64,000 bases of DNA from Spinacia oleracea (Eukaryota; Streptophyta; Magnoliopsida; Caryophyllales; Amaranthaceae), in contig NC_079489.1 of NCBI RefSeq assembly GCF_020520425.1, forward strand, positions 16,020,001 to 16,084,000, written 5' to 3'. A program made the translations under genes and the position numbers. Below the pieces are notes generated by a model. That model was given only the letters and a program-made list of their open reading frames with translations. It did not search any database and was not told the origin of the DNA. Positions 220-63,079 of this stretch are shown here, one piece after another; position 1 is the first letter of the stretch; the number at the start of each line of letters is the position of its first letter.

Positions 220-17625
<17,406 letters not shown>

Positions 17626-20725: not shown

Positions 20726-20912
20726 TCTAGTAAATAAAACTGTTACAGAGTATTGATTAGAATCACCCTTCAGCTAGTATGATACTCCGTAAATGAAAGT
20801 AGGTTTTACTGTTTTAAGAAAGAAGATTTGAGTGAGGAAGAACTGAAGAAGGAAGGCGGGAAAACTTTTTAGGTTTTAGACTTTTAGTTCCTTTATCATC
20901 AATCAAATTACG

Positions 20913-23900
20913 ATGGCTTCGTCCCAACAACTCTACTCTGAAATCAAACTTGCTGAATCTCAAATTCATCAAATTAGCAATAGTTTTCTTTCTCTCCAAT
21001 CTCAGTTCTCACAGCAATGGAAAACCCTACAAAATTCCTTGGGAAATATCCAAAATTCACTTCAAACTCGTTTCAAAGAGCTCGAATTAAAAGAGCAACG
21101 CCTCAATTCGCTTCAGAAGTTCATCGAAACTCGTCAGAAAGAAGTTGAATTTAAAGAATATCAACTCAATTCCACCGAAAAGTTCGTCTGCGATCGATGC
21201 AAAACTTTAGGGATGAAGGTAAGCGAAACTGGTAATGTAGTTGTTAAAATTGAACCTTCAATTGAATTTAGAGGAGATTGTAGTAATTCAGATGCTTCTA
21301 TTAAGCTGTTTGTTACAATGGATGGCAAAACCCTACAAATGTTTTTGAATGATAGGGTTGATGAACATGAATTTATGAGTGAAGAGGTTAAGAGTGCGCT
21401 TAAGTTATCAAGCGATCCTGCGAAACTGGTATTAGATGCTATGGAAGGGTTTTTTCGGCCACATTTGAGGAAGGGTAGTTGGGAGTATGAAGGAAATGTT
21501 GTTAGGAGTAGTTGCGTACTTTTGCTGGAGCAGTTACTGGAATTGAAGCCTAAAATCAAGAAGGCCGTGAAAGAGGAAGCGAGGACGTTGGCTGGTGTGT
21601 GGAGGGAGAAAATGAGGCTGGAGAGTGGGAATTACATGGTGGTATTGGGATTCTTGCTTTTGGTGGCTGTTTATTTGTTGTGGTGGGATTTCGACAAGGA
21701 AGAAATCAGGATTCTCTGTGAGGATGTTCAGCAGCATAGAGTGGTGGGTGAACTACAGTCTAGACTTGGGTTTCTGCAAAAGTGTGGTGGTGAGTTGCTG
21801 ATCATTGAAGTTTTCACCTTTCTTAAATTCTGCTTTTTTTTTTTATTGCATTATAGTATTTGGACTATAGTCTGGACGAAATGCATGATTTTCTTGTTGT
21901 GTTTTGTTCATAACCATATTTTGGCATATCTGGAAGTTTGTTGATAGCACAGTTGGTTTAAGGCAGTTTACATTGAAGTTGGGAATTGGGGTTTTGTAAA
22001 TTATTCGAGAATGTAATCTCTTGCTCCTGTCCTTATTATCCTAAAGAAGGGAGAAGTTAATGTGTTTTCGCATCTTTCACACCTGATTTTACAGCTTACA
22101 TTAGACCGAGCTTGTTATCTACTTAGGTGTTGTACTCCCATTTTTTAGCTTAGACGACAAATATGTGTTGGATATAGCCGGTTTCACAAACAAAACTGCC
22201 TTTACCTTCAAGTAAACAGGACATTGTATAGTTTCTTTGTCACCAACTGGCTGCTGAAGTAACTGCTAGATTTTCTAACATTTTACTACTTTTTTTTAGA
22301 GCTCTAATGCCTGTCTACTAATAATTATGTTTCACTTGCTAGTGAGCAGCAGGGCATCACAAGCTCAGAAAAATGAGCCATGTTCTCCACCTGGAAAGAA
22401 TGTGTTTGTTTCACCATCCATGGATCCTTCCATTGACCTTTGCACTTTATGCAAGGGGATGGATGGAAAAACCCTACAAATTTTCTTGAATGATAGGATC
22501 AATGAGCAAACTTCCATGGGTGAAGAGGTTCAGAGTGCGCTCAAGTTATCGAGTGATCCTGCAAAATTGGTACTGGATGCCTTGGAAGGTTTTTTCCATC
22601 CACATTTGAAGAAGGATAATATGAAGTGTGAAGGAATTGTTGTCAGGAGTAGTTGTGTACTGTTGCTAGAGCAGCTGATGGAACTGAAGCCTGAAATAAC
22701 AAAGGCGGTGAGAGAGGAGGCCAAGGCGTTGGCCGGCATTTGGAGGGAGAAAATGAGGGCGGAGAGTGGGAATTACATGGTGGTATTGGGATTCTTGCTT
22801 TTGGTGGCTGTTTATTTGCTGTGGTGGGATTTCGACACGGAAGAAATCGGGAGTCTCTGTGAGATTGTTCGGCAACATAGAGTAGTGGGTGAACTACATT
22901 CTAGACTTGGATTTCTGCAAAAGTGTGGTGGTGAGTTTCTGATCATTGGAGTTTTCACCTTTCATAAACCTTATAGTCTAGATGAAACACGTGATTTTCT
23001 TGGCTTGTTTTTTTCATGAAAATATATTGGCTTGGTTTGAAGTGTTAACATTATAAGTGGTCTAAAAGTAGTTTACATTTGAAGGTGGGAATTGGGGTTT
23101 TGTAGAGTATATGAGAACTGTAATCTCCTTTGCTCCTGTCTCTATTCTCCTAAAGAAGGGAGAAGTTGTTATTATCTTTTTCATATCTTTCATACCCGAT
23201 TTTTCAGCTTAGACTACATAATAGTCGTAATTATATTTCATAGCAGGTTTGGCAAACAAAAACTTCCTTTACCTTAAGTAAACAGGCCCCTGAATTGTTT
23301 GTTTCTCTCCAATTGGCCGGTGTTATAAATGCTAGATTTTCTAATATGTTAGTACTTGTTTATTTATAGCGTCGATGCCTGTCTAATGCTTTTGTTTCCC
23401 TTGTTAGTGAGCAGCAAGTCATCACAAGCTCAGGAAAATGAGCCCTATACTCCACCTGTACAGAAGGTACCATCCACGGATCCTGCCATTGAGCTTTGTG
23501 CTTTATGCAGGGGGGTGGATGGCAAAGCCCTACAAATGTTCTTAAATGACAGGATTGATGAGCAAACTTTCATGGTTGAAGAGGTTCAGAGTGCACTTAA
23601 GTTATCGAGTGATCCAGCAAAACTTGTACTAGATGCCATGGAAGGGTTTTTCCATCCACATTTGAAGAAGGATAATATGGAGTATGAAGGGGATGTTGTT
23701 AGGAGTAGCTGTGTACTCTTGCTGGAGCAGTTAATGGAATTGAAGCCTGAAATCAAGAAGGCGTTGAGAGAGGAGGCGAGGGCGTTGGCTATTGTGTGGA
23801 GGAAGAAAATGAGAGCAGAGGGTGGGAGTTACATGGTGGTGTTGGGATTCTTGCTTCTGGTAGCTGTATATTGGTTGTGGTATGATTTCGAAAAGGATGA

Positions 23901-26140
23901 ATTCGGGAGTCTCTTTGTGGTTGTTCAGCAGCATAAAGTGGTGGGTGAACTACATTCTAGACTTGGTTTTTTACAAAAGTGTGGTGGTGAGTTCCTGATT
24001 ATTTATTGCGTTGTAGTTTTATGTACCATATTCTAGGTGAAATGCATGATTTCCTTGGTGTGTTTTGTTCATGATCATATGTTAGCATGGGGTGGAAGTT
24101 TGTTGACATTATAGCTGGTTTGAAGGTAGATCACATTGAATAGGGCATTGGGGTTTTATGTACCATATTCTAGGTGAAATGCATGATTTTCTTGGTGTGT
24201 TTTGTTCATGATCATATGTTAGCATGGGGTGGAAGTTTGTTGACATTATAGTTGGTTTGAAGGTAGATCACATTGAATAGGGCATTGGGGTTTTATGTAC
24301 CATATTCTAGGTGAAATGCATGATTTTCTTGGTGTGTTTTGTTCATGATCATATGTTAGCATGGGGTGGAAGTTTGTTGACATTATAGTTGGTTTGAAGG
24401 TAGATCACATTGAATTGGGCATTGGGGTTTTGTAGAGTATACGATAATTCATAATTCTAGTCTCCTTGCTCCTTGTTATATCTTTCTGTGTCTTTTATAC
24501 TCTGTTTTTCAACTTAAAATTAGACAAGGCTTTTCAATTCTTGGATGCTGTGCTCCCATATTTTAGCTTAGATCAGTGTTACTTTATTCCCTTATTGTCC
24601 ACGAACTCTAACAGGGCGAATTAACATGAAAATGGTAAATTTTTGGCCTAATTTAACAAATTAGATTTTCTTAAGTAACCTGGTCTCTGCATTGTTTCTT
24701 TCTCTAGATTTTCAAAAAGGTTAGTATGTATCTTAAGCATCATAGCCTGTCTAATACTTATTGTTCACTTGCTAGTGAGCAGTGTGGCATCACAAGCTCA
24801 GAAAGCAGAGCCATATACTCCACCTGTAAAGAATGTGTTTGTTTCACCATCCACGGATCCTTCCATTGAGCTTTGCACTTTATGCAAGGGAATGGATGCA
24901 AATGGGTTGAAATCATTTTTAATGAAGCATGTAAAGGACCTGAAGCTATACCATGAAAAAGTTTTGGATTGTCTTCGAAGTGCTTCAGATCCAGCAAATC
25001 TTGTTTATAATGTAGTGCAGGATTTCTATCTAGAACTGAATGAATTTCAGGACGACACGAACATTTCATGTTGCAGTTTTTTGTTAGAGCAATTGATGAA
25101 ACTCTCACCACGTATTAATTATGTGCTGAAAGAAGAAATCATGAACTTTGCAGCTTGTTGGAAGGCTAGATTAGCAATGGAGAGTACCAATCCCTTTATT
25201 GTTTTTGGCTTTTTGAAGTTCTTAGCTGCCTACAGATTGTCGAGTTCCTTTCAAGCAGATGAAATTCTTTCACTATTCGATATATTCTGTGATAAGGGTG
25301 ATATCTATGGATTTGAACAAATTCCTGGTTTATGCCGTGCTCTGGGTTTGGAAGCAAAGATTCCAGGTAATTTGACCCTCACTCTTTGCTGACCTTAAAT
25401 AAGTTCTAACTAGCTTATGTATTATCCTTAATGTTGGCAATCAACATATTTAGCTACCAGTACCACCTTGTTTCTCTTCTTCTTTTATAGCCATCAAGTA
25501 TTGAGCATGCATATGTGATATGACTGAGTAATGAGGATATGACTGAGTACATGTACCAAGCGGCATTCCATATAACTGTAAAATGCTATCTATTTGATTA
25601 CATTGTTCAACGAACTGTTTAGCTAAATTTGTGGGGTTTTGTTGATGTACAGATCATATTCAATCTCTTATTAAGGAGAAAAAGCGGCTTGAGGCTGTTC
25701 GCTATATATGTGCATTTAATCTTGTTGGTAAGTTCCCTCCAGACCCTCTACTGAAAGCATACTTGGCATACACCGAGGCAGCTGCATTGGAGATGTGTAA
25801 GAAATTCAATAATTCGGTTAAGGCTCAGAACAAATGTGCAAAGAAGCAAATAAGTGCACTACAAAATGTAATCAGATGCATTTACGATTTCAACTTAGAT
25901 TCTGAGTACTCACCCCTACAACGCATTAGGCAACTTGAGCTAGAGAAGGAAGAAAGAAAATCCTCAAAGCTGGAAAAGAAGAAATCAAGAAAGCAGAAAA
26001 GGTCTGCTCCAACTGCTCCTTGTGCTGACCAAACTCATCTGCTACAGGGATGCAGTCAAGAAAAGCGTCCTCGTACTGACACTGTTGAAGAATCTGTTTC
26101 ACCCAATGTATCTGTTCCCGAGGCCTCCAACGTGAACTAA
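20913..26140 (+). CDS. FRIGIDA-like protein with four tandem core domains (5 exons)
   Basis: A member of the plant FRIGIDA/FRL family, whose founding member scaffolds transcription of FLC; the role of multi-domain members is less clear. Exons: 20913-21789, 22343-22930, 23408-23986, 24776-25366, 25653-26140; all junctions are phase 1 and the total is 1040 codons plus stop. Residues 5-85 form a charged coiled coil ending in the CDRCK region. FRIGIDA cores follow in exon 1 (~130-292), exon 2, exon 3 and exon 4, each with the order DGK/DAN.L..FL, LKLSSDPAKLVLDA, CVLLLEQL.EL.P.I..AV and MVVLGFLLLVAVY..WW. The fourth core is the most diverged and is the only one continued by exon 5, which carries the usual FRIGIDA end VIRCIYDFNLDSEY and a basic KKKSRKQKR tail that may be a nuclear signal. 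The start is the first ATG in a good coding frame after an in-frame leader. Confidence 0.9.
24021..24431 (+). repeat. 137-bp tandem triplication in FRIGIDA-like intron 3
   Basis: The motif 'atgtaccatattctaggtga' recurs at 24021, 24158 and 24295, a period of exactly 137 bp, with almost no differences between copies. The third copy runs into 'gttttgtagagtat', the intron sequence also seen in introns 1 and 2. A recent expansion. Confidence 0.92.
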
Positions 26141-27464: not shown

Positions 27465-27469
27465 CAAGC
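27465..27469 (+). repeat. Target-site duplication CAAGC (left copy) of the solo LTR
   Basis: CAAGC directly precedes the TGTAACACCC start. The matching copy is at 42125-42129, beyond the nested element. Five bp is the normal Ty3/gypsy length. Confidence 0.9.
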
Positions 27470-30337
27470 TGTAACACCCTGACAATTCTCTCTTTTCTAA
27501 AACAACATTTTGATATAAAACGTAGAGAATTATCAAGGCATTATCGCCCGTGTGAAAACGTAACGGCTTATTCAGAATTTTGCAGCGGAAAACATAAAAC
27601 TAACTTTAGGTTTATAAATAATCGATTACATAGTTAATCCCAAAACCAATCAACGAAAATAAGATCAACTAACAAGTTTAAAGTCCAATTAAACAAACCC
27701 AAGTTAACTTAGCAAATCAAAACTAAATACAAGCTCTCTATTCCCGATCCCAATGATGCAACATCTTCAAACCTGCAGATAGACAATGCTTATTGATCCT
27801 TAGAGAATGCTCACCAAAGATTGGGTCATCACAGGATCAATAAGGCATAGCCATGATCAACATGCACAAGCAAAAGCACGTAATCAGCAAAGCTGAGTAC
27901 TACATACTAAATCAATAATAATCCTAACATGATTCTATTAAACGAACAATCCTAACATGGTACTAAATAAAACATAAGCAAGGATAATCAAGATATATTG
28001 ACTTGAAGACTATACTTGACCGAACTAGACCTTTGTATCATTAACATTATTTTAATTGAAATAGTCAATGGACTGAGTTGTCTACTAAAAACTTCTTCTT
28101 CTTCACTAAGGAAGACGAGGTACGGGCGCGACTCCGTAAACCCCAATGACCTGCGATATCGAGGGACTTTTTAAATAAAAATAGAACCGGTGATCAATCC
28201 GGCCCCAGAAAAATCCATAGGCTACCCATGACCCCAACTCCTGATTGTCCGTCACTTTAGACGTGCACAGTCTAAAGCTATTGCTACTCATTTTCACTTT
28301 ACATGACTTAACTTTTAATACTTGGTTATGACTCATCAAACATAAATATTATATTCAACAAGTAAACACAACTTCTTTTATCTTTGAATTAAACCAGTGA
28401 TCACAACATTCAACCAAGAGCCAATTCCAACTATTTTAATCCTTCCTTTATCCATATTTAAAAACCTTTATTAGGTATAAGGTTCAACTACCAAACAAGG
28501 TCCTCGGCCCTTATAAAGTAGTGAAAATCTAAAGAGGAACAACGATCAATAAAGACCTAAACCAATATTAAATAATATAAAGTTCCCCAAAACCAACATG
28601 CTTGCATCAATATTCCATGCTAACATGATTCAATTCTTATAAATAAAGTTCTATGCTCAACGCATTAATTCAACGACATTGAACATGAAATTCCAACATA
28701 AACAAGTTCATAAATACATTCATCATATTCTCAATACAACACACATCCAAGCACACAGGTATGTACGTACCTTGTGTAAACAAACTGATAGGCCACTTTA
28801 ACGAATTCAAAAGTCGCCCACAAAGAATTCTCCGCCTAAAAACAACCAATAAAATTCCCCAATCAATTTCCAACAATTTACAGCAATACTAAAGTATTCC
28901 AAATACATCCTAAACATATTTTGAACCATCCCCAATATCGAAACTTAACTAAATAACCTCCAAGCATAATAACTATTAAACTAATGATCCCAAATCGTTC
29001 TAAACTCCAATAAAACATCCCTTTTAAAATTTCCAGCAATATAAAATTATTTCAAACGTACACAAAACATAATCAACGTTCTTAAAATCATAAAAATAGT
29101 AGCTTTAATAATATATAATCATTCTATTATGATTTTAGAATATTAAAACCTTAAAAATTCATGCTTTAATAATTAAATTCCTTATTTCAATTCAATTACA
29201 TAATCTGAAAATTAAATTTATTATTTAAACATAATATATAATATGAAAATATAATTTAATCATGATAACTTATAATTTACATTCAAGGAGCATGAATTAA
29301 ATTAATAAAACTTCATTAAGACCCTAAATTAAACGTAGTTAATAAATCTGAAAATAATTAAATTAATTTCAACAACATATAATCTGAAATTTCATAACTT
29401 AATCATAAAAATCATAAGTTTAATTCAAGAGACATAAATTAAATTAATAAACTTAATTAAACATTTAAATAACTCAGGGTTTAAGAAAAACAACCAACTA
29501 AAGAGAAGAGAGTGGGCGGCCGGCGGTCCGGGGCACGGCGGCGCGGCAGCTGCTGGGTTGGTGGTTGCGACTGGTGGGCGGCGGTTGCTGTCGGCATAAA
29601 CAGGGCACGAATGAGTGCCACGAACGAAATAGAAAAAGAAAGAGAACGAAAGACAAAAAGAGAAGGGAGGATGGGCGAACTACCGTGCAACGACGGCGAC
29701 CTTTCGCGGCGACGACGGTTGGCGGCGAGGGAGGCTCACGACTTGGCTGCGCGAAACTTAAACAAGAGGGAAGCAATGGTGAGGGAGGACGAAAAATCCA
29801 TAAAAAGAAAAGAAGGAGCACGAAGAGAGAGAGAAGGAGAAGGGGGATTACCGGCGGCTGGCGAGGGACGACGGTGGTCCAGCGTGGGTGGCTGGACGGC
29901 GGCGACAAGGAGAGCACTAAGGTGTGAGAGTTCACGTGAATTCTTGAAGAGGGTTTGAGGGTTTTCTGCTTTTCTTTTCACGTGAAGGAGAGGAGAGGAT
30001 TGAGAGTTTTACATGAATTTGGAATATGGGTAAGGGATGTGGGTTTACTTATTTTGGGCTTTGCTAATTTGGGCTAGGATTAGAATTAAGTTTGGTATTT
30101 GAATTCAACACCGCTTAAGATTGTTTTCTAATTTCAATCGTGTTTTCGTAATTCAAATTCTTTTCAACATCAAATTCTAAAATTATTTTAATTTCACAAA
30201 CCGTTGAAATATTTAAAAGTATAAAAATAAATATTCGTTAATTACATTTTTATTTCTAAAATTCGTAAATTATATTTAAATATAATTAACAATACGTTAA
30301 AATATATTAATAAAATGTATAAAATTATGGGGGATTA
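27470..30337 (-). mobile_element. Solo LTR, same family as the gypsy element, minus orientation
   Basis: It begins TGTAACACCC, the complement of the LTR end GGTGTTACA, and runs to GGGGGATTA. The final CA is displaced to 42123-42124 by the nested insertion, so the LTR was about 2,870 bp. It is collinear with the complement of 39373-42117, including the 129-bp segment that the 5' LTR lacks. It has many substitutions and is clearly older than the nested copy. No internal region accompanies it, so it formed by LTR-LTR recombination. ORFs inside (for example 29481-29981, from the GC-rich part) are not genes. Confidence 0.92.
30333..30337 (+). repeat. Target-site duplication GATTA (left copy) of the nested gypsy element
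   Basis: GATTA precedes TGTAATCCCC; the right copy is at 42118-42122. It lies within the last bases of the solo LTR. Confidence 0.92.
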
Positions 30338-32953
30338 TGTAATCCCCCGTAATTTTATTATATTCTATTTATATATTTTAACGTATATTTAATATATTTA
30401 AATGTAATTTACGAATTTTAGAAATGAATATGTAATTAAAATATAATTATGTTATTACATTTTGAATATTTTAAATGATTTATGAAATCAAATTGATTTT
30501 GACTTTTACGTTAAAACGAATTAGGATTTTGGAATCACGTTCTATTGGAACTAGAAAGCAAATCCTAAATTCTTAATTCTACTCCTAGCCCACTTGAAAA
30601 GCCCAACCATTAAAACCCAAAAGAACTCAAACCCTCACCCAAAACAAATTCACGTAAAAAGAAAAATCAAGCCTCCTCTCCCTCCTTCAACTCCACGTAC
30701 AACATCCTCCCTGCAGTTTTCTCTCCTCCCTTCGTCCGCCGCTTCTGCCCAGCCACCGGACAACCATCACCGCCGGTAACTCTCTTTCTCTCCCCCTCGT
30801 GTTTCTTTCTCTCTTTCGTCGTCTTTCTCTCCTCACTCACTAACTCTTTGTTTTTCTTGCGAAGCACCACCAGTGCACGCAACAACCAGCCCTGTCGCCT
30901 GTTCCTAGCCGCCACCTACTCGCGCCGCCGGTCTATCGCATTATATTTCCCGGTAACCGCCTCTCTTGTCCTTCCTTCGTTCGTTCTTTTTCTCTGTATT
31001 TCTTGCTCTCCTCAATTGTGTTCCTGCTGTTGCACAGCCATCGCACGACCCAGCCACGTCGACGACAACCATCAACCCAGCCGCTGCCGCGCCGCCGTCC
31101 CCGGACCGCCGGCCGCCCACTCTTCCTCTTCTTTTGGTTAATTCCTTTTAAACCCTAAGCTAATTTAATTATTTAATTACGTTTTATTAATTCAATTTAT
31201 ATTTTTCTTGAGTTAAGTTTATGATTTTATGATTTAATTACGAATTTAAGACTTACTTGTTTGCATAATTAAATTATCAAATTTCAGATTACATAATTCG
31301 ATTGAAACAAGAATTTGAATTATTTAAGGCATGAATTTTAATGTTTTAATGGTTTTAAATCATGGTAGAATGAGTATGAATTATTGAAACTATTATTTTT
31401 ATGTTCTAAGCATGATAAGTTGGTTTTGGGAAGTTTGTAAACGAATTTATATTGCTGAAAATTTAAGTATGATATTTGCAAAGAGTTTTCAACGAATTTC
31501 AATCTTTAATTCAATAATTGTTATGCTAGGAAATCAAATATTCAAGTTTTGTTATTGGAGAAAAGTTCTAAATATGTTTAGGATGTAGTTAGAATGTGTT
31601 AGTATAGTTGTGAATGATTAGAAGTTGATTGGGGATATTTGTTGGTTGTTTTAGGCGGAGAATTCTCTTTAGGCGACTTTTGAAAGTGTTAAGGTGGCCT
31701 ATCAGTTTGTTTACACAAGGTACGTACATACTTGTGTGCTTGGAATGTGTGCTAATTGTTGAAACCATGTTGAATCTTGTTGTTGAACTTGGTTATGTTG
31801 ATATTATTGTTGAACTTGGTGATGTTGATATTATGGACGAACTGGGTTATATTGAATGTGCATGTTTAATACTGTTGGACAAACTTATTGAACTTATTTT
31901 GCACTATAAGAACTGTAACATGTTAGTATGGATGTTTGATACAAACATGTTGGTTGGGAACACTAGATTATTCTATATGATTGGGTTGGATCAATTGGTT
32001 GTTGTTCCCTTTCTATCTTTTCACTACTTTATAAGGGCAAAAACAGTTGTGAACAAATGTGAATTGTCTGTCTTATGTAATGGTTGAGTCATAACGGAGT
32101 CTCAATTTGTAAATCATGTAAAGTGAAACTGAATAGCAATAGCTTTAGACTGTGCACGTCTGAAGTGACGGACAAACAGGAGTTGGGGTTCATGGTGGTA
32201 GCCCATGGCCTTTTCTGGGACCGGATTGATCACCGTGTCCTATTTTTATTTAAACGTTCCTCGATATCGCAGGTCACTGAGGTTACGGAGTCGCGCCCGT
32301 ACCTCGTCTTCCTTAGTGAAGACTTCTGGATGGTCAACTCGGTCCATTGTCTATTTCAACTAAAATGATATTATGGTTATTAAGTCTAGCTTAGTCTAGT
32401 CAAGTATAATCGTCAAATTATTATGTTTTGTCTGTCCTTACTTATATTTATTAGTATCATGTTAGGGTTGTGGGTTTGATAGTATCATGCTAGGATTGTT
32501 GTTGTTTTAGTATGTAGTACTCAGCTTTGCTGATTACGTGCTTTGTTTGTGTGTGTTGATCATGGCTATGCCTTATTGATCCTGTGATGACCCATCTTTG
32601 GTGAGCAGTCTCTAAGGATCAATGAGCGTTGCCCATCTACAGGTTTGAAGATGATGCATCATTGGGATCGGGATTAGAGAGCTTGTAGTTCTATTCGTTT
32701 AATTAAGTGATTTAATTTGTTAACTTGGTTTTGAAATTTGTCGTACTATTCGTATTTCCTTAATTCAGTTAATTGGTTTGGACCTAATATGTAATAGATT
32801 ATTTATGAACCTAAAAGTTAGTTTCATGTTTTCCGCTGCAAAATTCTGAATAAGCCGTAACGTTTTCACACGGGCGATAATACTTTGATAATTCCCTACA
32901 GTTATATTTAAAAAGAGGTTATTTTAGAAAATGGGAATTGTTGGGGTGTTACA
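30338..32953 (+). repeat. 5' LTR (2,616 bp)
   Basis: Starts TGTAATCCCC and ends GGTGTTACA. It matches 39373-42117 throughout, except that the 129 bp present at 41074-41202 are missing after position 32038. The solo LTR retains this segment, so the 5' LTR has the deletion. It holds an AT-rich start, a GC-rich C/T block (30600-31150) and an AT-rich tail. Pro/Ser-rich ORFs in the GC block occur in all LTR copies and have no known domain. Confidence 0.95.
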
Positions 32954-32956
32954 AAG

Positions 32957-32968
32957 TGGTATCAGAGC
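32957..32968 (+). other. Primer binding site, tRNA-Met type
   Basis: TGGTATCAGAGC, 3 nt after the 5' LTR, is the standard plant LTR-element PBS complementary to the 3' end of initiator tRNA-Met. Confidence 0.95.
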
Positions 32969-33191
32969 TAAAGGTTTTACTGACATTTCGTGTCTACCTT
33001 TTATATCTTAGGCGCCTAACCAACTAATTAGTTACGTAAAAGTAATTTCGCACTAGTGAATAAATTTAAAGTTATTAGCTAGAAATGTTTGAATTTATTT
33101 TAATATTGACTCTTGAATCGTGCTTTGAAATACGTTTTTGGTTATGCGAATTAATGTATTTCGATTCTTTTGAAATTCAAATTAATATTTC

Positions 33192-33241
33192 AAAAAAAAA
33201 AAAAAAAAAAAAAAATTTACTGCTGCTGCTGCTACAGTACC

Positions 33242-33276
<35 letters not shown>
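33192..33276 (+). repeat. Two poly(A) tracts (25 and 33 nt) separated by a (TGC)n block
   Basis: A runs at 33192-33216 and 33244-33276 flank 'tttactgctgctgctgct'. They lie in the leader between the PBS and the first ORF of the gypsy element. Lengths may be unstable or mis-assembled. Confidence 0.85.
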
Positions 33277-33279
<3 letters not shown>

Positions 33280-33603
33280 AATTATTTATCCTTTTATAAT
33301 TATTCTTTTAATCCATCCAATTCTTATAAATCATTCTTGTTTTATTCTTTTATGCTTCAATGTTTGATATACTATGATTATTTTGAAAGTTGGGTAGTAT
33401 AGGAAAGGGCATATAGAATAGAATCATTGTGTCTGCATTATGTTTACATGATTGTAATTTCTCTACCTGCTAACTGTCGTGTCTTTCCTATGCTTTGCGA
33501 TTGATATACATTCTTACTCATTGTGTATTGTGGGATCATACGGTAAGTGAGAGTACTAATTACTAACATAGAAACTATGTTTAATTGTTATAGATCTCTA
33601 ATC

Positions 33604-34143
33604 ATGTCTGGCATGGAAGGAAATAGAATAGGGAGCAACTCTAACCCTATTATTCTAAGCGATGATGAAAATGAAATGGATTACGAGTCTGACATTAACA
33701 GTTACACCAGCCATGAACTTGTTCTGCGTCGAGTTTTAAGAGCAGGAGAACCTGATAGTGATGATGAAGCCCTTCGTGAATTTGATCGTGCTAGAGGGCA
33801 AACTAGGGTCGATATTTATCAAGCTGTTTTGAGACCTGAAAGCGATTCGGAGCCTGAGTTTGAGCATGAATTTGGGTTTGAGTTCGAACAAGAATTTGAG
33901 TTTGAGTTCGAACATGAATTAGAGGTTGAACCTGAGTTTGAGTTTGAGCCCGAACATGAACCTGAACCTGAGCCTGAGCCAGAGGAAGCTAATCATCAAC
34001 TTCAAGGTCTACGAAGATCCTCTAGGCCAAGAAAAGAAGCTTATTATTTTGATATGGATGACGATGATGAACTTAAATATGAGCTATTCACCCTAGAAGG
34101 TTATAGCGAGTCAAAGGACAAGTCTGATGATGTTTCCCTTTAG
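33604..34143 (+). CDS. Accessory acidic repeat protein of the gypsy element
   Basis: A 179-residue frame between the PBS and gag on the element's sense strand. I do not recognise it. The first 80 residues are acidic and include DDENEMDYESD. Residues ~100-145 form a degenerate E-F/E-P repeat (EFEHEFGFEFEQEFEFEFEH), followed by the basic patch RRSSRPRKEAYYFDMDDDDE. No zinc knuckle, membrane segment or catalytic motif is seen. The frame can extend upstream to 33547, but MSGMEGN at 33604 begins the compositionally typical part. Some plant gypsy lineages carry extra ORFs, but these more often lie 3' of pol. The repeat could also be a selection-free expansion. Confidence 0.6.
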   Translation: MSGMEGNRIGSNSNPIILSDDENEMDYESDINSYTSHELVLRRVLRAGEPDSDDEALREFDRARGQTRVDIYQAVLRPESDSEPEFEHEFGFEFEQEFEFEFEHELEVEPEFEFEPEHEPEPEPEPEEANHQLQGLRRSSRPRKEAYYFDMDDDDELKYELFTLEGYSESKDKSDDVSL

Positions 34144-34542
34144 CTTTGCTTACATATTTAGTTGTGTGTGAGAAAAATGTTGGACAATCCGCCCAACCAT
34201 AGTTTATGTTTATATCGTAGAACCTTTTTACTTTATTTTGAGAACAGGTGTGTGTTAATATTTAGGATTGTTATTGACATTCTTCTGAGGAATAAAAGTT
34301 AGATTATTGACTATCTAAAGATCAGAGTATTACGGGCACGCAAGGGGAATGTTTTCTTCTTTTATTCTAACTTATTATTCGCGATGATTGAAGTTATTCC
34401 TTGTCTCTCAGTTGAATGTTTTGCATGATTGTTCATTTCGTGTGCATTTTGAATGTTAATGTGATATTGCATTGCTAGAGGATAATGTAAGTAAAGTTTT
34501 GAACCTGAATTAGAGCATATAAATTTCAGGTCGCGCTCTAGG

Positions 34543-37500
34543 ATGGCCAATAATAGTGACCTAGCTGCTGCTATTCGCCTCTTGGCGGAAAAACTAACCC
34601 AGGAAAGAACTGAGCGTCCCGATTCTGCAGGGGACATGTTTGAAAGGCTTGCGAAAGTTAAACCACCATACTTTAAGGGGCAGGCAGACCCCACCTTCCT
34701 TGAAAACTGGATCAGGGAATTTGAGAAACTATTTGGTGCGGTAAACTGTCCTGAGCATATGAAAGTAGGCCAAGCTGTCCTCTACTTGAAAGATGAGGCC
34801 GACCTTTGGTGGAGGGAAAATGGGACTAGACTAAGCGCTGCTGAGGGATTCAATTGGGATTCTTTTATTGTTGCTTTGAGGGGGAAGTTTTATCCTCCTT
34901 TTATGAGGAAGCAGAAAGCCCAGGAATTTATCAACCTTAGGATGGGGAATATGACCATTGCTGAATACTACAGTAAGTTTATAGCTTTGTCGAGGTTTTC
35001 ACTTGAGGTGGTAGCTACTGAGGAACTAAAGGCTCAGAGGTTTGAGCAAGGGTTAACCGATGAGATCCAACTGGGATTAGGCGGGGAAACCTTTACGTCC
35101 TTAGACATTGTTTATGGGAGAGATGCTCATATCTACGGCCTTCAGACCAGGAGAGACAAAAAGAATATTGTTGTTGGGGATAAAAGGAAAGAGTTTAATG
35201 CTGGGGGAAGTCAGGGGAACTTCAAAAGGAATAGAAATGGAAATGGGAATGGTAATGGTAGTGGTAATGGTAATGGTAATGGTAATTTCCAGGGAAGAAA
35301 CAACCAGGGAAATAACTATAACAACAGAAACCAAACTGTCAGAGTGTACCACTGCAAGAGGTGCAACAACAACCACCCTGGGAAGGATTGTAAGGGGGAA
35401 TTGGTAATTTGCAACTATTGTCATAAGAAGGGACATAGGGAGTTTGAATGCTTCACAAAACAGAAGAGAGAGCAAAATAGTGTTGGGAGTAGTAACCCAT
35501 GGAAACCAGGGTTTAACCATTCGGGGAACCAAAGTTCGAAGCCTGCTGGGGCACCAAACAACCAGGGAAACCAAAACAAACCTGCCAATGGAAGCAACAA
35601 TAACAACAAGACTCCCGGAAAGCTGTTCGTAATGAGTAGAAATGAAGCTGAACGTTCTGCAGACGTAGTTTCGGGTACTTTCTCTATCAACTCCTTACCT
35701 GTTAAAACATTGTTTGATTCAGGGGCAACATATTCTTTTATTTCGACCTCTATTGTTAAAAATTTGAAGTTAGTAGATTTTGAGGCAATTGATTTACCTG
35801 TTAGTATGCCTAATGGTGCAACAATAAGGTGTGCGAAACTATTTAAGAACTTGCCTTTGAAGATAAAAGATTGCACTTTTCCATCTAATTTGATAGAATT
35901 TAGTTTGGGGGACCTAGATGTGATTCTGGGGATGGATTGGCTAAGCTTATACAAGGCCAGGATAGATTGCGAGATTCAGAAAGTAAGCCTAAAGAACCCT
36001 ACTGGGAAATCAATATCATATAGACGTTTTGGGAAGTCTAGGAACTTTGGGGTGATCTCCGCATTACAAGTGAGGAAACTGGTCAATAAAGGGTGTGAAC
36101 TATTTTTCTGTAGTGTCCAAGATGTGAGTAAGAAAGTTGGGGTAGAGATAGAGGATGTCCCAGTCGTAAGAGAATTTGTAGATGTATTTCCGGATGAGAT
36201 CCCGGGTATGCCACCGGCTAGAACCCTTGAATTTACCATAGAGTTAAATCCCGGAACTGCACCTATATCCAAAGCACCTTATAGGATGGCACCCCCAGAA
36301 ATGAGTGAGTTAAAGACACAATTGCAGGATTTGTTCGACAAGGGGTACATTAGGCCTAGTGCATCACCGTGGGGAGCTCCAGTATTGTTTGTCAAAAAGA
36401 AAGATGGGAGTATGCGGCTATGTATTGATTATAGGGAGTTGAACAACGTAACAATCAAAAACAAATATCCTTTGCCTAGGATAGATGACCTGTTTGACCA
36501 GTTGAACGGGGCAAGTGTATTCTCAAAGATTGATTTGCGTTCGGGATATCACCAATTGAGGGTAGCTGAAAAAGACATTCCTAAGACTGCATTTAGGACT
36601 CGTTATGGTCATTATGAGTTTACAGTAATGCCTTTTGGGTTAACCAATGCACCCGCCATCTTTATGGATCTGATGAATAGGATTTTCCATGAGTTCCTAG
36701 ATAAGTTTGTGGTGGTATTCATTGATGATATTCTGATCTATTCGAGGAATGAAAAGGAACATGACGAACATTTGAGGGTTATCTTGGAGACGCTTAGGAA
36801 GAACCAGTTGTATGCAAAGTTCTCTAAGTGCGAGTTCCGTCTGGAAAAGGTAGCATTTTTGGGGCATTATGTGTCAAAGGAAGGAGTCTCTGTGGATCCT
36901 GCCAAGATTCAAGCTGTGAGTGAGTGGCCTACCCCGAAGAATGTGTCTGATATTCGGAGTTTCTTAGGTCTAGCTGGGTATTATAGGAGATTTGTGAGAG
37001 ATTTCTCAAAAATAGCAAAACCCACGACCAACTTAATGAAGAAAGAATCAAAATTTGAGTGGAGCGAAAAATGTGAGGAAGCCTTCCAAATCCTCAAAGA
37101 ACGTTTAACCTCAGCACCTGTTTTAACCTTGCCTGATGGGAATGAAGGGTTTGAGGTATATAGTGATGCGTCGAAGAATGGGTTGGGGTGTGTATTACAG
37201 CAAAATGGGAAGGTGATTGCGTATGCGTCGCGTCAATTAAAACCATATGAGGCTAATTACCCTACCCACGATCTAGAGCTAGCTGCGATTGTTTTCGCTT
37301 TGAAAATTTGGAGACATTACCTCTATGGGGCAACATGTAAGATCTTCACAGACCACAAAAGCCTAAAATACATTTTCACCCAGAAAGATCTCAACATGAG
37401 ACAAAGAAGATGGTTAGAGTTGATCAAGGACTATGATTTGAACATCCAGTACCATGAGGGGAAAGCAAACGTAGTTGCCGATGCATTGAGTAGGAAATCT

Positions 37501-39090
37501 AGCCATAGTATGAATGTCTTGATAGTGCCTGAAGAGTTGTGTCGAGACATGCAGAGACTTAGCCTGGAAATAGTAAACCCTGGGGAAACCAAAGCAAAAC
37601 TGAGTGCATTATCATTGGGGTTGTCTATATTCGAGGAGATTAGAGAAAGTCAAGCTGGGGATGAGTGCCTAGAGAGAATCAAAGAAAAGATGGGTCAAGG
37701 GAAAGAAGTGGATTTCAAGATTCATGAAGATGGTAGTTTGAGGTTCAAAGGGAGATGGTGCGTACCACAAAAGTGTGAAGAACTCAAGAGACGTCTTATG
37801 GACGAGGGGCATAATACTCCATATTCTGTGCACCCTGGGGGTGACAAGTTGTACAAAGACCTGAAACAAATCTATTGGTGGCCTAATATGAAACGGGAAG
37901 TTGCTGAGTTTGTGTCTAGATGCCTAACCTGTCAGAAAGTCAAAATAGACCACAAAAGACCCATGGGGAAAGTTCAACCTTTAGAAGTGCCTGGATGGAA
38001 GTGGGATTCCATTTCTATGGATTTTGTTACTGCCTTGCCTAGATCAAAGAACGGAAATGATACCATTTGGGTGATTGTGGATCGTCTAACAAAATCAGCC
38101 GTGTTTATTCCGATTAAAGAGACTTGGAAAAAGAAACAGCTTGCAAGGACATACATTAAGCATGTGGTGAGGTTGCATGGGGTCCCAACCGATATTATCT
38201 CAGACCGTGACTCAAGATTCCTCTCGAAATTTTGGCAAAAAGTCCAGTTGAACCTTGGGACAACTTTGAAAATGAGCACTGCTTTCCACCCTGCAACCGA
38301 TGGTCAGACTGAGAGAACTAACCAGACTATGGAAGATATGTTGAGGGCTTGTGCAATTGACTTTAAGGGTAGTTGGGAAGACCATCTAGACTTGATCGAA
38401 TTTTCATACAACAATAGCTACCACGCAAGCATTAAGATGGCACCTTTTGAGGCACTATATGGGAGAAAATGTAGAAGTCCCACCTGCTGGAATGATTTCA
38501 GTGAAAATTTAGTCTTGGGAACGGAATTCATTGAAGAGACTGTCAAGAATGTGAAAATAATTCAGGCTAGAATTCAAGCTGCCCAGGATAGGCAAAAGAG
38601 TTATGCTGATTTGAAAAGAAGAGATGATGAATTTGCAGTAGGTGATAAAGTGTTCCTGAAAGTATCACCAACCAAGGGTGTGATGAGATTTGGGAAGAAG
38701 GGCAAGCTAAGTGCCAAGTATGTAGGCCCATATGAGATTCTGCAACGAATAGGGAAAGTAGCATACAAGTTAGCCTTGCCAATGGAGTTCGAAAAGATGC
38801 ACGACGTGTTTCACATTTCCCAACTAAAGCGCTATATCCATGACGAGCGTCATATCTTAGAGCCTGAGAGAATCCAGATTGATAGTAGCCTCACATACGA
38901 AGAAAGGCCTGTGAAAATCCTTGATAGAAAAGTGCGTAGTACACGCAATAAGGACGTCAGCATAGTGAAAGTGCTTTGGTCGAACCACGAGTACGAAGAG
39001 GCCACGTGGGAAGCCGAAGCTGAAATGAAGATCAAGTATCCGGAGTTATTTTCTGAGGTGAGTTACGAGGGCGTAACTCGTTTTCTTTAA
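34543..39090 (+). CDS. Gag-Pol polyprotein of the Ty3/gypsy element (1515 aa)
   Basis: A single open frame. Gag core ~1-200, with a Gly/Asn-rich linker near 225-260. The CCHC zinc knuckle spans C290 to C303 ([14 protein letters not shown]), after a second Cys/His cluster (CKRCNNNH). Protease DSGATYSF near 391. Reverse transcriptase with CIDYRELNN at ~627 and the catalytic FIDD box at 726-729. RNase H with [10 protein letters not shown] near 873. Integrase zinc finger H1090/H1097/C1127/C1130 and catalytic D1160, D1221, E1257 (D-D-35-E). A chromodomain-like end at ~1459-1505 ([22 protein letters not shown]). Gag and Pol share one frame without a shift. No stop or frameshift, so it is potentially functional. 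Start: first [11 protein letters not shown], just after the leader. Confidence 0.96.
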
Positions 39091-39099
39091 GGGGGGTAG
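39089..39099 (+). other. Purine tract just after the gag-pol stop
   Basis: The TAA stop runs into aaggggggtagaatg. It resembles the true polypurine tract 270 bp downstream and may be a duplicated or secondary plus-strand primer site. Confidence 0.4.
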
Positions 39100-39358
39100 A
39101 ATGCGATAGAAATTCGCGCTTTTTACCTATTTTTATGATATTTTATGCATTTCATGCTTATTTTAGCAACCTTTACATGTTGATGCAAGTAAATAGATTC
39201 TCCGCATAAGAAAATTGTGTTCTTGGGTATTGCAAGTAACTCTTAGTTGGCAAAAGAGTGCACAAGAGTGGCACAAAGTACTTCTACAATTAGAATAAGT
39301 TGAAAAGTTTGGAAAAATATGTGAATTTTCGTGCCAAGTTTCGGGACGAAACTTCTTT

Positions 39359-39371
39359 TAAGAGGGGTAGA
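39359..39371 (+). other. Polypurine tract
   Basis: aagaggggtagat ends 1-2 nt before the 3' LTR and is preceded by the perfect palindrome GTTTCGGGACGAAAC at 39339-39353. The position is as expected for plus-strand priming. Confidence 0.85.
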
Positions 39372-39372
39372 T

Positions 39373-42117
39373 TGTAATCCCCCGTAATTTTATTATATTC
39401 TATTTATATATTTTAACGTATATTTAATATATTTAAATGTAATTTACGAATTTTAGAAATGAATATGTAATTAAAATATAATTATGTTATTACATTTTGA
39501 ATATTTTAAATGATTTATGAAATCAAATTGATTTTGACTTTTACGTTAAAACGAATTAGGATTTTGGAATCACGTTCTATTGGAACTAGAAAGCAAATCC
39601 TAAATTCTTAATTCTACTCCTAGCCCACTTGAAAAGCCCAACCATTAAAACCCAAAAGAACTCAAACCCTCACCCAAAACAAATTCACGTAAAAAGAAAA
39701 ATCAAGCCTCCTCTCCCTCCTTCAACTCCACGTACAGCATCCTCCCTGCAGTTTTCTCTCCTCCCTTCGTCCGCCGCTTCTGCCCAGCCACCGGACAACC
39801 ATCACCGCCGGTAACTCTCTTTCTCTCCCCCTCGTGTTTCTTTCTCTCTTTCGTCGTCTTTCTCTCCTCACTCACTAACTCTTTGTTTTTCTTGCGAAGC
39901 ACCACCAGTGCACGCAACAACCAGCCCTGTCGCCTGTTCCTAGCCGCCACCTACTCGCGCCGCCGGTCTATCGCATTATATTTCCCGGTAACCGCCTCTC
40001 TTGTCCTTCCTTCGTTCGTTCTTTTTCTCTGTATTTCTTGCTCTCCTCAATTGTGTTCCTGCTGTTGCACAGCCATCGCACGACCCAGCCACGTCGACGA
40101 CAACCATCAACCCAGCCGCTGCCGCGCCGCCGTCCCCGGACCGCCGGCCGCCCACTCTTCCTCTTCTTTTGGTTAATTCCTTTTAAACCCTAAGCTAATT
40201 TAATTATTTAATTACGTTTTATTAATTCAATTTATATTTTTCTTGAGTTAAGTTTATGATTTTATGATTTAATTACGAATTTAAGACTTACTTGTTTGCA
40301 TAATTAAATTATCAAATTTCAGATTACATAATTCGATTGAAACAAGAATTTGAATTATTTAAGGCATGAATTTTAATGTTTTAATGGTTTTAAATCATGG
40401 TAGAATGAGTATGAATTATTGAAACTATTATTTTTATGTTCTAAGCATGATAAGTTGGTTTTGGGAAGTTTGTAAACGAATTTATATTGCTGAAAATTTA
40501 AGTATGATATTTGCAAAGAGTTTTCAACGAATTTCAATCTTTAATTCAATAATTGTTATGCTAGGAAATCAAATATTCAAGTTTTGTTATTGGAGAAAAG
40601 TTCTAAATATGTTTAGGATGTAGTTAGAATGTGTTAGTATAGTTGTGAATGATTAGAAGTTGATTGGGGATATTTGTTGGTTGTTTTAGGCGGAGAATTC
40701 TCTTTAGGCGACTTTTGAAAGTGTTAAGGTGGCCTATCAGTTTGTTTACACAAGGTACGTACATACTTGTGTGCTTGGAATGTGTGCTAATTGTTGAAAC
40801 CATGTTGAATCTTGTTGTTGAACTTGGTTATGTTGATATTATTGTTGAACTTGGTGATGTTGATATTATGGACGAACTGGGTTATATTGAATGTGCATGT
40901 TTAATACTGTTGGACAAACTTATTGAACTTATTTTGCACTATAAGAACTGTAACATGTTAGTATGGATGTTTGATACAAACATGTTGGTTGGGAACACTA
41001 GATTATTCTATATGATTGGGTTGGATCAATTGGTTGTTGTTCCCTTTCTATCTTTTCACTACTTTATAAGGGCGGAGGACCTTGTTTAGTAAGTTGAAAC
41101 TTTATGCCCATATACAGGGTTGCTCATGGTTAAAGGAAAGGTTGGTTAAGTTGGAATGAGTCTTGATTGATGCTTTTATGATCACTTACTTAATTCCAAG
41201 ATAAAAACAGTTGTGAACAAATGTGAATTGTCTGTCTTATGTAATGGTTGAGTCATAACGGAGTCTCAATTTGTAAATCATGTAAAGTGAAACTGAATAG
41301 CAATAGCTTTAGACTGTGCACGTCTGAAGTGACGGACAAACAGGAGTTGGGGTTCATGGTGGTAGCCCATGGCCTTTTCTGGGACCGGATTGATCACCGT
41401 GTCCTATTTTTATTTAAACGTTCCTCGATATCGCAGGTCACTGAGGTTACGGAGTCGCGCCCGTACCTCGTCTTCCTTAGTGAAGACTTCTGGATGGTCA
41501 ACTCGGTCCATTGTCTATTTCAACTAAAATGATATTATGGTTATTAAGTCTAGCTTAGTCTAGTCAAGTATAATCGTCAAATTATTATGTTTTGTCTGTC
41601 CTTACTTATATTTATTAGTATCATGTTAGGGTTGTGGGTTTGATAGTATCATGCTAGGATTGTTGTTGTTTTAGTATGTAGTACTCAGCTTTGCTGATTA
41701 CGTGCTTTGTTTGTGTGTGTTGATCATGGCTATGCCTTATTGATCCTGTGATGACCCATCTTTGGTGAGCAGTCTCTAAGGATCAATGAGCGTTGCCCAT
41801 CTACAGGTTTGAAGATGATGCATCATTGGGATCGGGATTAGAGAGCTTGTAGTTCTATTCGTTTAATTAAGTGATTTAATTTGTTAACTTGGTTTTGAAA
41901 TTTGTCGTACTATTCGTATTTCCTTAATTCAGTTAATTGGTTTGGACCTAATATGTAATAGATTATTTATGAACCTAAAAGTTAGTTTCATGTTTTCCGC
42001 TGCAAAATTCTGAATAAGCCGTAACGTTTTCACACGGGCGATAATACTTTGATAATTCCCTACAGTTATATTTAAAAAGAGGTTATTTTAGAAAATGGGA
42101 ATTGTTGGGGTGTTACA
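39373..42117 (+). repeat. 3' LTR (2,745 bp)
   Basis: TGTAATCCCC..GGTGTTACA; nearly identical to the 5' LTR except for the 129-bp segment 41074-41202. Followed by GATTA (42118-42122), then CA, the displaced end of the solo LTR. Confidence 0.95.
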
Positions 42118-42129
42118 GATTACACAAGC
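42118..42129 (+). repeat. Nested insertion scar: GATTA + CA + CAAGC
   Basis: In order: right TSD of the gypsy element (42118-42122), the last two bases of the older solo LTR (42123-42124), and the right TSD of that LTR (42125-42129). This fixes the insertion order. Confidence 0.92.
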
Positions 42130-42695: not shown

Positions 42696-42767
42696 GCCCT
42701 TATAGCTCAGTGGTAGAGCGTCAGTCTTGTAAACTGAAGGTCCGTAGTTCGATCCTGCGTGAGGGCA
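42696..42767 (+). tRNA. tRNA-Thr (anticodon UGU)
   Basis: A 72-nt cloverleaf: acceptor GCCCTTA/TGAGGGC, D stem GCTC/GAGC, anticodon stem TCAGT/ACTGA with loop CTTGTAA (anticodon TGT at 42728-42730), T stem CGTAG/CTGCG with loop TTCGATC, discriminator A. A run of T begins 3 nt downstream, a pol III terminator. CCA is not encoded, and it does not look like the plastid trnT-UGU, so it is a nuclear gene. D-arm GCTCAGTGGTAGAGC and T-arm GTTCGATCC serve as A and B boxes. Confidence 0.95.
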
Positions 42768-42910
42768 CTTTTTTTTTCCCATTTTCAGTCTTTTGATGTC
42801 CATCTGTCTTGTTTTTTTTACTCCGTATTTTTTTTTCACTAACTACTCCGTATTTGTTGAAACGGGATACATACACAAATCTCCCCCGCCCCCTTCTAAA
42901 ATACACAAAA

Positions 42911-45140: not shown

Positions 45141-45691
45141 TTTTTTTTTTGAGAGGTAAGAAGAAGTACATTAGGAGGCCCGCCGCACGTGGGTAACTCC
45201 TAAGTAATCGTTAGAGACAATAGAAGATAAAGTGGGGCTAGTCCCCGGATCAATATACATAGTGTTTTGAATCAAATGACCGACATTAGCTATCCAGTCT
45301 GCCGCCTGATTAGCTTCTCTGTAGATGTGGGAGATGACCCAGGTGTCAAAGTGATGAGAGAGCAGGTCTTTGATATCTTTAATAATGTTGTCAAGTTTCC
45401 ATGGTGTTGCCCATATTCCCTTAACTGTATTTATGACCAAAAGGTTGTCCCCTTCTATAAGTAAGTTCTTGATTTGAAGATGAATTGCTTCTTGAATACC
45501 TTTGTGGAGAGTGAGGGCTTCCGCCATGTAGACTTGTGAGTTGCCGAGATTTGAAGTCGAGGCCTTTAAGTGTTGGCCCATATGGTCCCTGATGATGAAC
45601 CCTGCCGCAGCTGAGGAGCTTTTGCGCGATCCGTCGAAATTGAGTTTGAAATGATTTGGGGAGGTGGGAGCCAGCGAACTGTGATGTTGGT
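45141..45691 (-). mobile_element. Nested 5'-truncated LINE fragment with RNase H domain
   Basis: Flanked by the 14-bp TSD GCGGCTCTGCCATT (45127-45140 and 45692-45705). T10 at 45141-45150 is its poly(A) tail. The body encodes the RNase H-like (RVT_3 type) end of a plant LINE polyprotein. Confidence 0.85.
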
Positions 45692-45713
45692 GCGGCTCTG
45701 CCATTGCATTCAT
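45171..45713 (-). pseudogene. LINE-derived RNase H-like ORF with start codon from flanking DNA
   Basis: A 180-codon frame. Residues ~24-140 show the RNase H-like pattern of plant LINE C termini: KLNFDGS (first Asp), AEALTLHKGI (Glu), IEGDNLLVI (Asp) and REANQAADWIA. The first residues, MNAMAEP, are read from the outer element and the duplicated target, not from the LINE, so the ORF is an accidental fusion. Intact frame and catalytic residues suggest a young insertion. Whether it is transcribed cannot be told. Confidence 0.8.
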
Positions 45714-45784
45714 GTTATTAAAGGGCCCCCGCTTTCATACTCAACTCAAATACATCTAACTTGGTTTAAAATATACTTATTTTA

Positions 45785-51472: not shown

Positions 51473-52170
51473 TATACAACAAGCTAAGTCACAAAATCCG
51501 GCATTCCAAAGCCAAAAACCCCAGCCCCAGCAACAATCTTGTGTCTTAAGCAACAAACCAAATTCCAAATTTTGACAGCATGATAAAATTTTACCTCAAG
51601 AGTAGAAAACCCCAGTATAGATGCTGCCTTTTTTGCCCATTCCTCGAAGAACAGAAGCTCAAAATGGTGCAAATTTCACAAAACCCCAGTTTCAGAACTT
51701 CATTTTTTGCGCTTTTTAACACTGAAATGGTTAAATTTTAACAGTGCAAGTGTGAAAGATTGGATTTGCAAAGTGGGTTGATGAAAGTTTTCACCTTTTT
51801 GGATCAAAAAGTGTAAAAAACAGAGCTTTAATGGAGTTCATGATGATCAATACACCATTTATTTACCCAGAAAGATGTAAATTTTTGCACCTACCTTGTG
51901 TACTACTTACTTGTTTGCTGGAAAAGAATTCACAAGAATTAGAGAGAAGTATGAATTTGCTGCCACAGAAGAAGTGAGAGAAAGAAGAGAGAGAAAGAGA
52001 GTCATAAATGAGAGAGCAATGCAGGTTCTCAAAACGGGCAGGGGGTGTAGGTGAAGTCATTAAATGAGGGAGTTAATGCAAAAGCAATTTATTTTGGGGG
52101 AGAAATTTTGATTGATTTTTGCCTAGATTCCTGCACACATGGGCTTTTTGAATTAAAAAATTTAATTGTT
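51473..52170 (-). promoter_or_regulatory. ACR4 5' leader and promoter region
   Basis: No gene. On the minus strand there is a CT/GA-rich stretch (51970-52005) typical of plant 5'UTRs, and an in-frame upstream ATG at 51568 that would add 32 residues. A possible GT at 51597 could start a leader intron. No TATA box could be assigned with confidence. Confidence 0.45.
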
Positions 52171-54661: not shown

Positions 54662-55406
54662 TGGCCCTATTTGGTTAGGAGCTTTTAGATGTTAGCTGAT
54701 AACTGGTTTGACTAGCTGTTAGCGGTTAACTGTTTGCATTAGCTGATTTGACTAGCTGGTTGCATTAGCGATTTGTGTAAAAGTGTTTGGTAAATTAGCT
54801 GATAGTTGTTAGCTGTTTAATATATAAAATGACCATTAAGGAATTGACATACTTTATTTCTTATTAATATTAGACAAATAGTTTACTGTGTTAATTTTTT
54901 TCTCTTTATATTTTTCTAAACATTGACTAAATAAAATAAATTTGTTTAAAAAAAATTGTTCTTAATTTAAATTTTTTAATAATATATATTTTTCAAATAG
55001 AGAAATATTACTAATGATATTTCAAGCATGATTGCAATATACTCCAATTGCTTCAAAGTACTAATATAAAATTTATTACAACAAAAAATGAATATAGTAA
55101 ATAAGGTGAAATGAAAAAGAAAATGTGAGTAACGTTTTCAGGAGAAAAACATGTAGGGTACCAAGGTTGATAGTGGTTGTAATTATAGGCAATAGTAAGA
55201 CAAAATAGTTATTTTCATCAACTTTCTCAAACCTCTAATTGCAAAAAGCTCCTATATTGAGCTTTTTCAAAATTAGTTTTTCACCCCAAAACTCTCTTCC
55301 AATCCTCTCCTAACCAAACACTCCCGGTTAGATTTTTCTAAATGTCAAACCTCTAATTTACCCAAAAAAACTCTTTTTCTCTCAAACCTCTTCTAACCAA
55401 ACACCA
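54662..55406. mobile_element. ~745-bp MITE-like element (copy of 13690-14423) inside an LTR
   Basis: The ends 'tggccctatttggttaggag' and 'ttctaaccaaacacca' are inverted, and the interior follows the GCN2-intron copy closely. It interrupts an LTR whose intact relative is at 56780-56970, which serves as an empty-site control. Confidence 0.8.
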
Positions 55407-55578
55407 TAGGCTTCTATCTTATATCATATAGCTAAGATATAACACAACTCTACCACATACTTCGTACAATATTGTATCATCTAAGATAACTACGTTATCC
55501 TCAATATCCTCCCGCAATCGGAACAGAAGTTTCACGAACGTTGCGATTGGAGAAATATAAAAATATGATGTCATAGGC

Positions 55579-56140
55579 TTGTCATGTCGTGTCAAGGACT
55601 CCTATCGTTACTGTCGTTTCAAGGAGTCTTGTCGTTTCGTACAAGGAAAAAATGTCATATGCATGTCTTGTCGTGTCAAGGAGTCTTGTCGTTACTGTCG
55701 TTTAAAGAAGTCTTGTTGTTTCGTACAAGGGAAAAATGTCATATGCTTGTCCTGTCGTGTCAAGGACTCCTATCGTTACTGTCGTTTCAAGGAGTCTTGT
55801 CGTTTCGTACAAGGAAAAAATGTCATATGCATGTCTTGTCGTGTCAAGGAGTCTTGTCGTTACTGTCGTTTAAAGAAGTCTTGTTGTTTCGTACAAGGGA
55901 AAAATGTCATATGCTTGTCCTGTCGTGTCAAGGACTCCTATCGTTATTGTCGTTTCAAGGAGTCTTGTTGTTTCGTACAAGGAAAAATGTCATATGCATG
56001 TCTTGTCGTGTCAAGGAGTCTTGTCGTTATTGTCGTTTAAAGAAGTCTCGTCGTTTCGTACAAGGGAAAAATGTCATATGCTTGTCTTGTCGTGTCAAGG
56101 AGTCCTATCGTTACTATCGTTTCAAGGAGTCTTGACGCTA
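55579..56140 (+). repeat. 84-bp tandem repeat, ~6.5 units, alternating A/B types
   Basis: 'atgtcatatg' recurs at 55651, 55736, 55820, 55904, 55987 and 56071, spacing 83-85. Successive units alternate between 'catgtcttgtcg..' and 'cttgtcctgtcg..', a 168-bp higher-order unit. Each unit carries the shorter words 'gtcaaggagtc' and 'cgtttcgtacaagg'. Because 84 is divisible by 3, two frames stay open (55584-56135, 183 codons; 55579-56040, 153 codons). One of them is a Cys-rich repeat (SCRVK.S.RYC). Nothing suggests it is a real gene. Confidence 0.92.
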
Positions 56141-56159
56141 CGGACAAGGAAAACCAAAC

Positions 56160-63009: not shown

Positions 63010-63079
63010 AGCGGGTTGTTTTATGACATTGAATTTAATTAATTTAAAAACTGATTATTTAATGCAAATCACCAATTAA

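Follow-up and report, generated by a model that had tools for sequence, protein, structure and literature searches.

Nesting of Tekay retrotransposons within their own lineage is already known from the literature. A survey of 12 plant genomes described 1,491 nested pairs, with Tekay autoinsertions (same-family nesting) in potato, tomato and cotton (PMC6911290), and in beet the signals of Bongo3, a member of the Tekay clade, include clusters attributed to nesting (PMC3605345). In the survey the nesting frequency was lowest in long terminal repeats (LTRs) and in the integrase domain; to account for autoinsertion the authors discussed shared niches and waves of expansion, and they supported targeting as well as random insertion (PMC6911290). 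Here we describe a nested pair from a 64,000-bp stretch of the Spinacia oleracea genome (contig NC_079489.1, positions 16,020,001 to 16,084,000; hereafter the window, in whose coordinates all positions are given). In this pair, which is resolved to the base, a young Tekay-type element whose gag-pol frame is open has inserted into a sister LTR, in what appears to be a gene-bearing plant region. As in the Tekay autoinsertions of Solanum and Gossypium, in which 5-bp duplications dominate, an older element has received a younger one of its own lineage, here complete with its target duplication; the lineage of the older one is judged from LTR similarity. In contrast to them, the younger element here entered a solo LTR, 2 bp from the tip, whereas nesting in the survey was lowest in LTRs (PMC6911290). 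Solo LTRs are not mentioned by that term anywhere in the text of the survey, so a host of this kind is not directly covered there (PMC6911290).

The young element occupies positions 30338-42117 (11,780 bp, plus strand) and is flanked on both sides by GATTA (30333-30337 and 42118-42122). Further out, CAAGC at 27465-27469 is repeated at 42125-42129; these coordinates were read directly and by script. Removal of the element together with one GATTA (30338-42122, 11,785 bp) joins positions 27470-30337 (2,868 bp) to the CA at 42123-42124 and yields a solo LTR of 2,870 bp on the minus strand, inverted relative to the young element, which starts with TGTAATCCCCC and ends with GGGTGTTACA. The left GATTA lies within the tip of this solo LTR, and the insertion point is located 2 bp inside its 5′ tip, the CA being the part that was severed. 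A first, sequence-only reading of the locus had proposed such an insertion, with both target site duplications intact and the LTR tip restored by excision, and it proved exact to the base. From base composition alone a 5-bp match has p ~0.0015, so chance does not account for two duplications that each match and sit exactly at LTR boundaries. The nested structure fixes the order of the two insertions and supports the solo LTR as the older, as had also been claimed. CAAGC adjoins the solo LTR immediately at either end, which supports its solo state, and self-comparison (pieces of at least 150 bp, E up to 1e-10) found no internal-region sequence of the young element beside it. The first 11 bases are common to the solo LTR and the young LTR, with the first mismatch at base 12.

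The single open gag-pol frame of the young element (34495-39090, plus strand) encodes gag, protease, reverse transcriptase (RT), RNase H and integrase in this order, followed by a C-terminal chromodomain. This is the arrangement of Ty3/gypsy chromoviruses, to which the element is assigned from its sequence. The Pfam scan covered five pieces, four from the gag-pol frame and one from an acidic frame upstream. In the gag-pol frame, gag, RVP_2, RVT_1, RNase H, H2C2 and SH3_Tf2-1 scored above the cut-off; rve (25.8 bits against 32.6, E 1.3e-5) and Chromo (23.3 bits against 25.1, E 6.1e-5) were below it, in the right order. The best solved match of the integrase piece was Ty3 (7q5b, E 1.5e-35). Yeast Ty3 thus has a related integrase and, like the young element, a 5-bp duplication, but is placed at RNA polymerase III (Pol III) start sites (PMC8632968), and no such placement was seen here.

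The putative chromodomain region (the Pfam Chromo stretch, 38914-39048, plus strand) contains RSTRNK and EEATWEAE, which agree with the two Tekay motifs (K/R)-X-(L/T)-R-X-(k/r) and EEXTWEXE (PMC3350952). Tekay chromodomains belong to group II, in which the first and usually the third aromatic cage residue are missing (PMC3605345, PMC3350952); compared by eye with the published descriptions, the young chromodomain also has neither the first nor the third. Long LTRs (about 2.5-3 kb when complete) and a gag-pol frame that ends before the 3′ LTR, here by 282 bp, are likewise found in both the young element and Bongo1-3 (PMC3605345). By size, long LTRs, frame end and chromodomain motifs, the young element would fit the Tekay clade.

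The putative primer binding site TGGTATCAGAGC (32957-32968, plus strand) lies 3 nt from the 5′ LTR and is complementary to the 3′ end of what we take to be the initiator tRNA-Met. Between this site and gag there is an acidic open frame of 198 codons, stop to stop (33547-34143, plus strand), which is rich in Glu and contains 24-bp repeats, and whose sole Pfam match was far below the cut-off. The purine tract AAGAGGGG (39360-39367, plus strand) ends 5 nt before the 3′ LTR. Compared by description, Bongo3 (SCHMIDT) of Beta vulgaris has 11,565 bp and LTRs of 2,561 bp, against 11,780 bp and LTRs of 2,616 and 2,745 bp here (PMC3605345). Both have a 5-bp duplication, a single gag-pol frame, a group II chromodomain and a tRNA-Met primer site, which in beet chromoviruses is up to 3 nt from the LTR (PMC3605345). 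They differ in the purine tracts, since Bongo3 has its main tract immediately before the LTR and a second one over the stop codon, and in the acidic frame, no counterpart of which was found under three wordings in the text of the Bongo3 paper (PMC3605345).

The two LTRs of the young element are nearly identical. The 5′ LTR (30338-32953, plus strand, 2,616 bp) and the 3′ LTR (39373-42117, plus strand, 2,745 bp) have a single substitution between them in 2,616 bp; the other difference is a 129-bp stretch, located at 41074-41202 in the 3′ LTR and missing at 32038/32039 in the 5′ LTR. At the substitution rate of 1.3e-8 used for LTR dating, one substitution corresponds to an insertion age of about 15 thousand years (95% range roughly 0.4 to 82 thousand). 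The 129-bp stretch is kept in the solo LTR at 72.5% identity, and the difference is therefore read as a loss from the 5′ LTR; the ends of the deletion share no bases by eye. As both LTRs of a retrotransposon are copied from one template, the difference should postdate the insertion, which suggests that the deletion occurred in the 5′ LTR after the element had inserted. It may instead be an assembly error. That the unequal LTRs arose through recombination between elements was ruled out by the GATTA at both ends.

The solo LTR is related to both young LTRs at a clearly greater distance. Full-length alignment of 27470-30337 plus 42123-42124 with the complement of the 3′ LTR gave 73.4% identity over 2,635 aligned positions (Kimura two-parameter distance, K2P, 0.33; 46 gap events), and alignment with the 5′ LTR gave 73.6% (K2P ~0.33; 44 gap events). 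BLAST pieces were 77.6-82.4% identical, and only such local pieces attain 80-82%. Conservation is high at the 5′ end and in much of the last third, and is 50-67% between about 150 and 900. Transposable element families are commonly delimited by at least 80% identity over 80% of the length, and 73.4% over 2,635 positions falls short of this rule. The earlier statement that the two belong to the same family thus stands at the lineage level and fails in the strict sense; on these identities, the two LTR types represent sister families within a single lineage. The observed/expected CpG ratio is 1.06 in the solo LTR against 0.93 and 0.90 in the young LTRs, so there is no CpG-depletion sign of great age, and the divergence of the solo LTR probably lies mostly between the sister families and not in long decay.

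The insertion has also placed related LTRs head to head without a spacer. The resulting diverged inverted repeat of about 5.5 kb (27470-32953), with a central TG flanked by a perfect 9-bp arm pair, is a possible candidate source of hairpin RNA.

The nested pair most probably arose by ordinary events. A sister-family chromovirus inserted first, on the minus strand, generating the CAAGC duplications, and would have been reduced to a solo LTR through recombination between its own two LTRs, a step that we infer to have preceded the second insertion. The Tekay-type element would then have inserted recently, through ordinary strand transfer by its integrase and a cut at GATTA staggered by 5 bp, and landed 2 bp inside the 5′ tip of the solo LTR, the exact spot being a matter of chance within the usual broad integration preferences. 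We consider it highly probable that the locus represents such a recent nested insertion, positioned by chance after the earlier element had been reduced to a solo LTR. The sequence-only reading had offered chance or targeting by the chromodomain integrase as explanations of the position. In our best reading chance is sufficient, and targeting, whether to own-family chromatin or to a sequence such as the GGGGATTA tip, is not needed for one event; what we have is an exact observation of an ordinary event.

The palindrome score of the target is 4 of 10, which is equalled or exceeded at 30% of solo LTR positions and 26% of window positions; the site is average, and palindrome targeting was ruled out. 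Outside the young element and with the target included, the window has 134 GATTA/TAATC sites and 10 GATTACA/TGTAATC sites, so that the tip heptamer is not rare. In the published 5-bp target motif G is allowed on the left and A is strongly under-represented on the right (PMC6911290). GATTA fits this motif on the left but, ending in A, not on the right, and the motif was therefore rejected as support (PMC6911290). Autointegration into unintegrated complementary DNA (cDNA) was also ruled out, as a CAAGC duplication of its own flanks the solo LTR in the genome, and about 27% of aligned sites differ.

Several figures weigh against placement by chance. Assuming uniform placement, only 6 of the 2,871 possible insertion points lie within 2 bp of a tip, a probability of about 0.002 once the LTR has been hit; for the whole window minus the young element it is about 0.0001. 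Within the window the sister LTR makes up 2,870 of the 52,215 other bases, giving about a 5% chance of hitting it at all. These probabilities are post hoc, for a single event picked for its striking look. As an illustration, if one tenth of the 1,491 surveyed nested pairs were in LTRs of about 1 kb (an assumed share), about one tip hit would be expected by chance. In addition, the Ty3/gypsy patterns in the survey were alike in recent and old pairs, which favours some targeting in nesting generally (PMC6911290).

Targeting could have acted through chromatin. Silent chromatin on the solo LTR, within a genic region, may have drawn the integrase complex, so that the LTR was a favoured target and only the exact base was left to chance; among the alternatives this one survives best, and we still regard it as improbable. 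Tekay autoinsertion is evident in some species (PMC6911290), and the ordinary genes around the pair would allow a silent LTR to form a local island. Two observations, a chromodomain fusion with yellow fluorescent protein located in heterochromatin and co-localisation of the Tma chromodomain with TFL2, indirectly support heterochromatin reading by group II chromodomains (PMC3350952). In contrast, that work identified no factor with which plant group II chromodomains interact (PMC3350952), and a simple reader of histone H3 lysine 9 methylation is weakened by the first and third aromatic cage residues missing, by eye, from the young chromodomain. Targeting to a histone mark, as one form of chromodomain targeting, is thereby made less plausible, while the indirect evidence for heterochromatin remains (PMC3350952). 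The CpG ratio of the solo LTR is not lowered, and LTRs and the integrase domain had the least nesting in the survey, in whose text solo LTRs are not named (PMC6911290).

Much less probable still is recognition of genomic LTR tips by the integrase: having to bind the terminal TGTAATCCCCC of its own lineage on the cDNA, it would also recognise it in such tips and insert alongside. Over 11 bases from the end, the target tip and the young LTR tip are identical, and it is within these bases that the staggered cut was made. Against this, there is only a single event, and five other tips in the window (the other end of the solo LTR and the four young LTR ends) are uninserted, although four of them are young and carry little weight. 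No published case of insertion at LTR tips was found in the accessible open-access literature, and the passages on a fungal element contained nothing on it (PMC10787394). The broader proposal, that Tekay-type integrases use the terminal TGTAATCCCCC of related genomic LTRs, with solo tips as landing sites and recurrent head-to-head LTR pairs, seems to us very doubtful. If such a tip preference held genome-wide, the end sequence of the element would serve its integrase as an address in the genome, something new to our knowledge; nothing here shows such a preference.

We know of no targeting of Pol III genes by plant chromoviruses. That the downstream tRNA-Thr (TGT) gene (42696-42768, plus strand) drew the insertion, as with yeast elements that use Pol III genes, is hardly credible, for the two insertions lie about 570 bp upstream of the gene, a distance that does not fit Ty3, whose joining positions are -6 and -2 relative to the start site used by Pol III (PMC8632968).

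Relatives were also searched for in viral_contigs and in plasmids, from which records of the window's own genome may be excluded. The LTR tip pattern retrieved 18 stretches from viral_contigs; BLAST of the three LTRs against them (E up to 1e-3) gave a 21-bp match in 3 of the 18 and nothing in the other 15. The three matching stretches (L004, L009 and L016) are mutually identical over the 141 bases compared, and outside the 21 bp they are not LTR sequence. With the RT piece, 22 pattern-matching stretches were obtained from viral_contigs, none of which encodes a relative, and the protease/RT DNA piece had no match in plasmids.

Judging from its surroundings, the nested pair lies in plant DNA that bears genes. 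In the window, excluding the young element, there are 23 open frames of at least 110 codons; 10 of these were scanned against Pfam, and matches were obtained in 8. Four of the matching frames, at 20.9-26.1 kb, are Frigida-like, one at 46.8 kb resembles a methyltransferase and one at 4.5 kb is a kinase piece; the other two are the receptor kinase and RNase H-like frames described below. The Frigida-like frames are arranged in tandem (20880-26137, plus strand), with repeat pieces that are 77-89% identical and a 137-bp unit present three times at 24016-24431. A receptor kinase frame of 959 codons with RCC1-like repeats is located at 48719-51595 (minus strand), its best solved match being ACR4 (E 6.8e-136). 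The open frame at 45174-45734 (minus strand) matches RVT_3 (RNase H-like, E 2.5e-25) and is perhaps a remnant of another retroelement. At 55568-56153 an 84-bp unit is repeated seven times in tandem, better described as 168-bp copies with 95% matches. Dispersed unclassified repeats of 81-91% identity pair 13707-14418 with 54694-55403, and 14093-14427 with 63077-63416.

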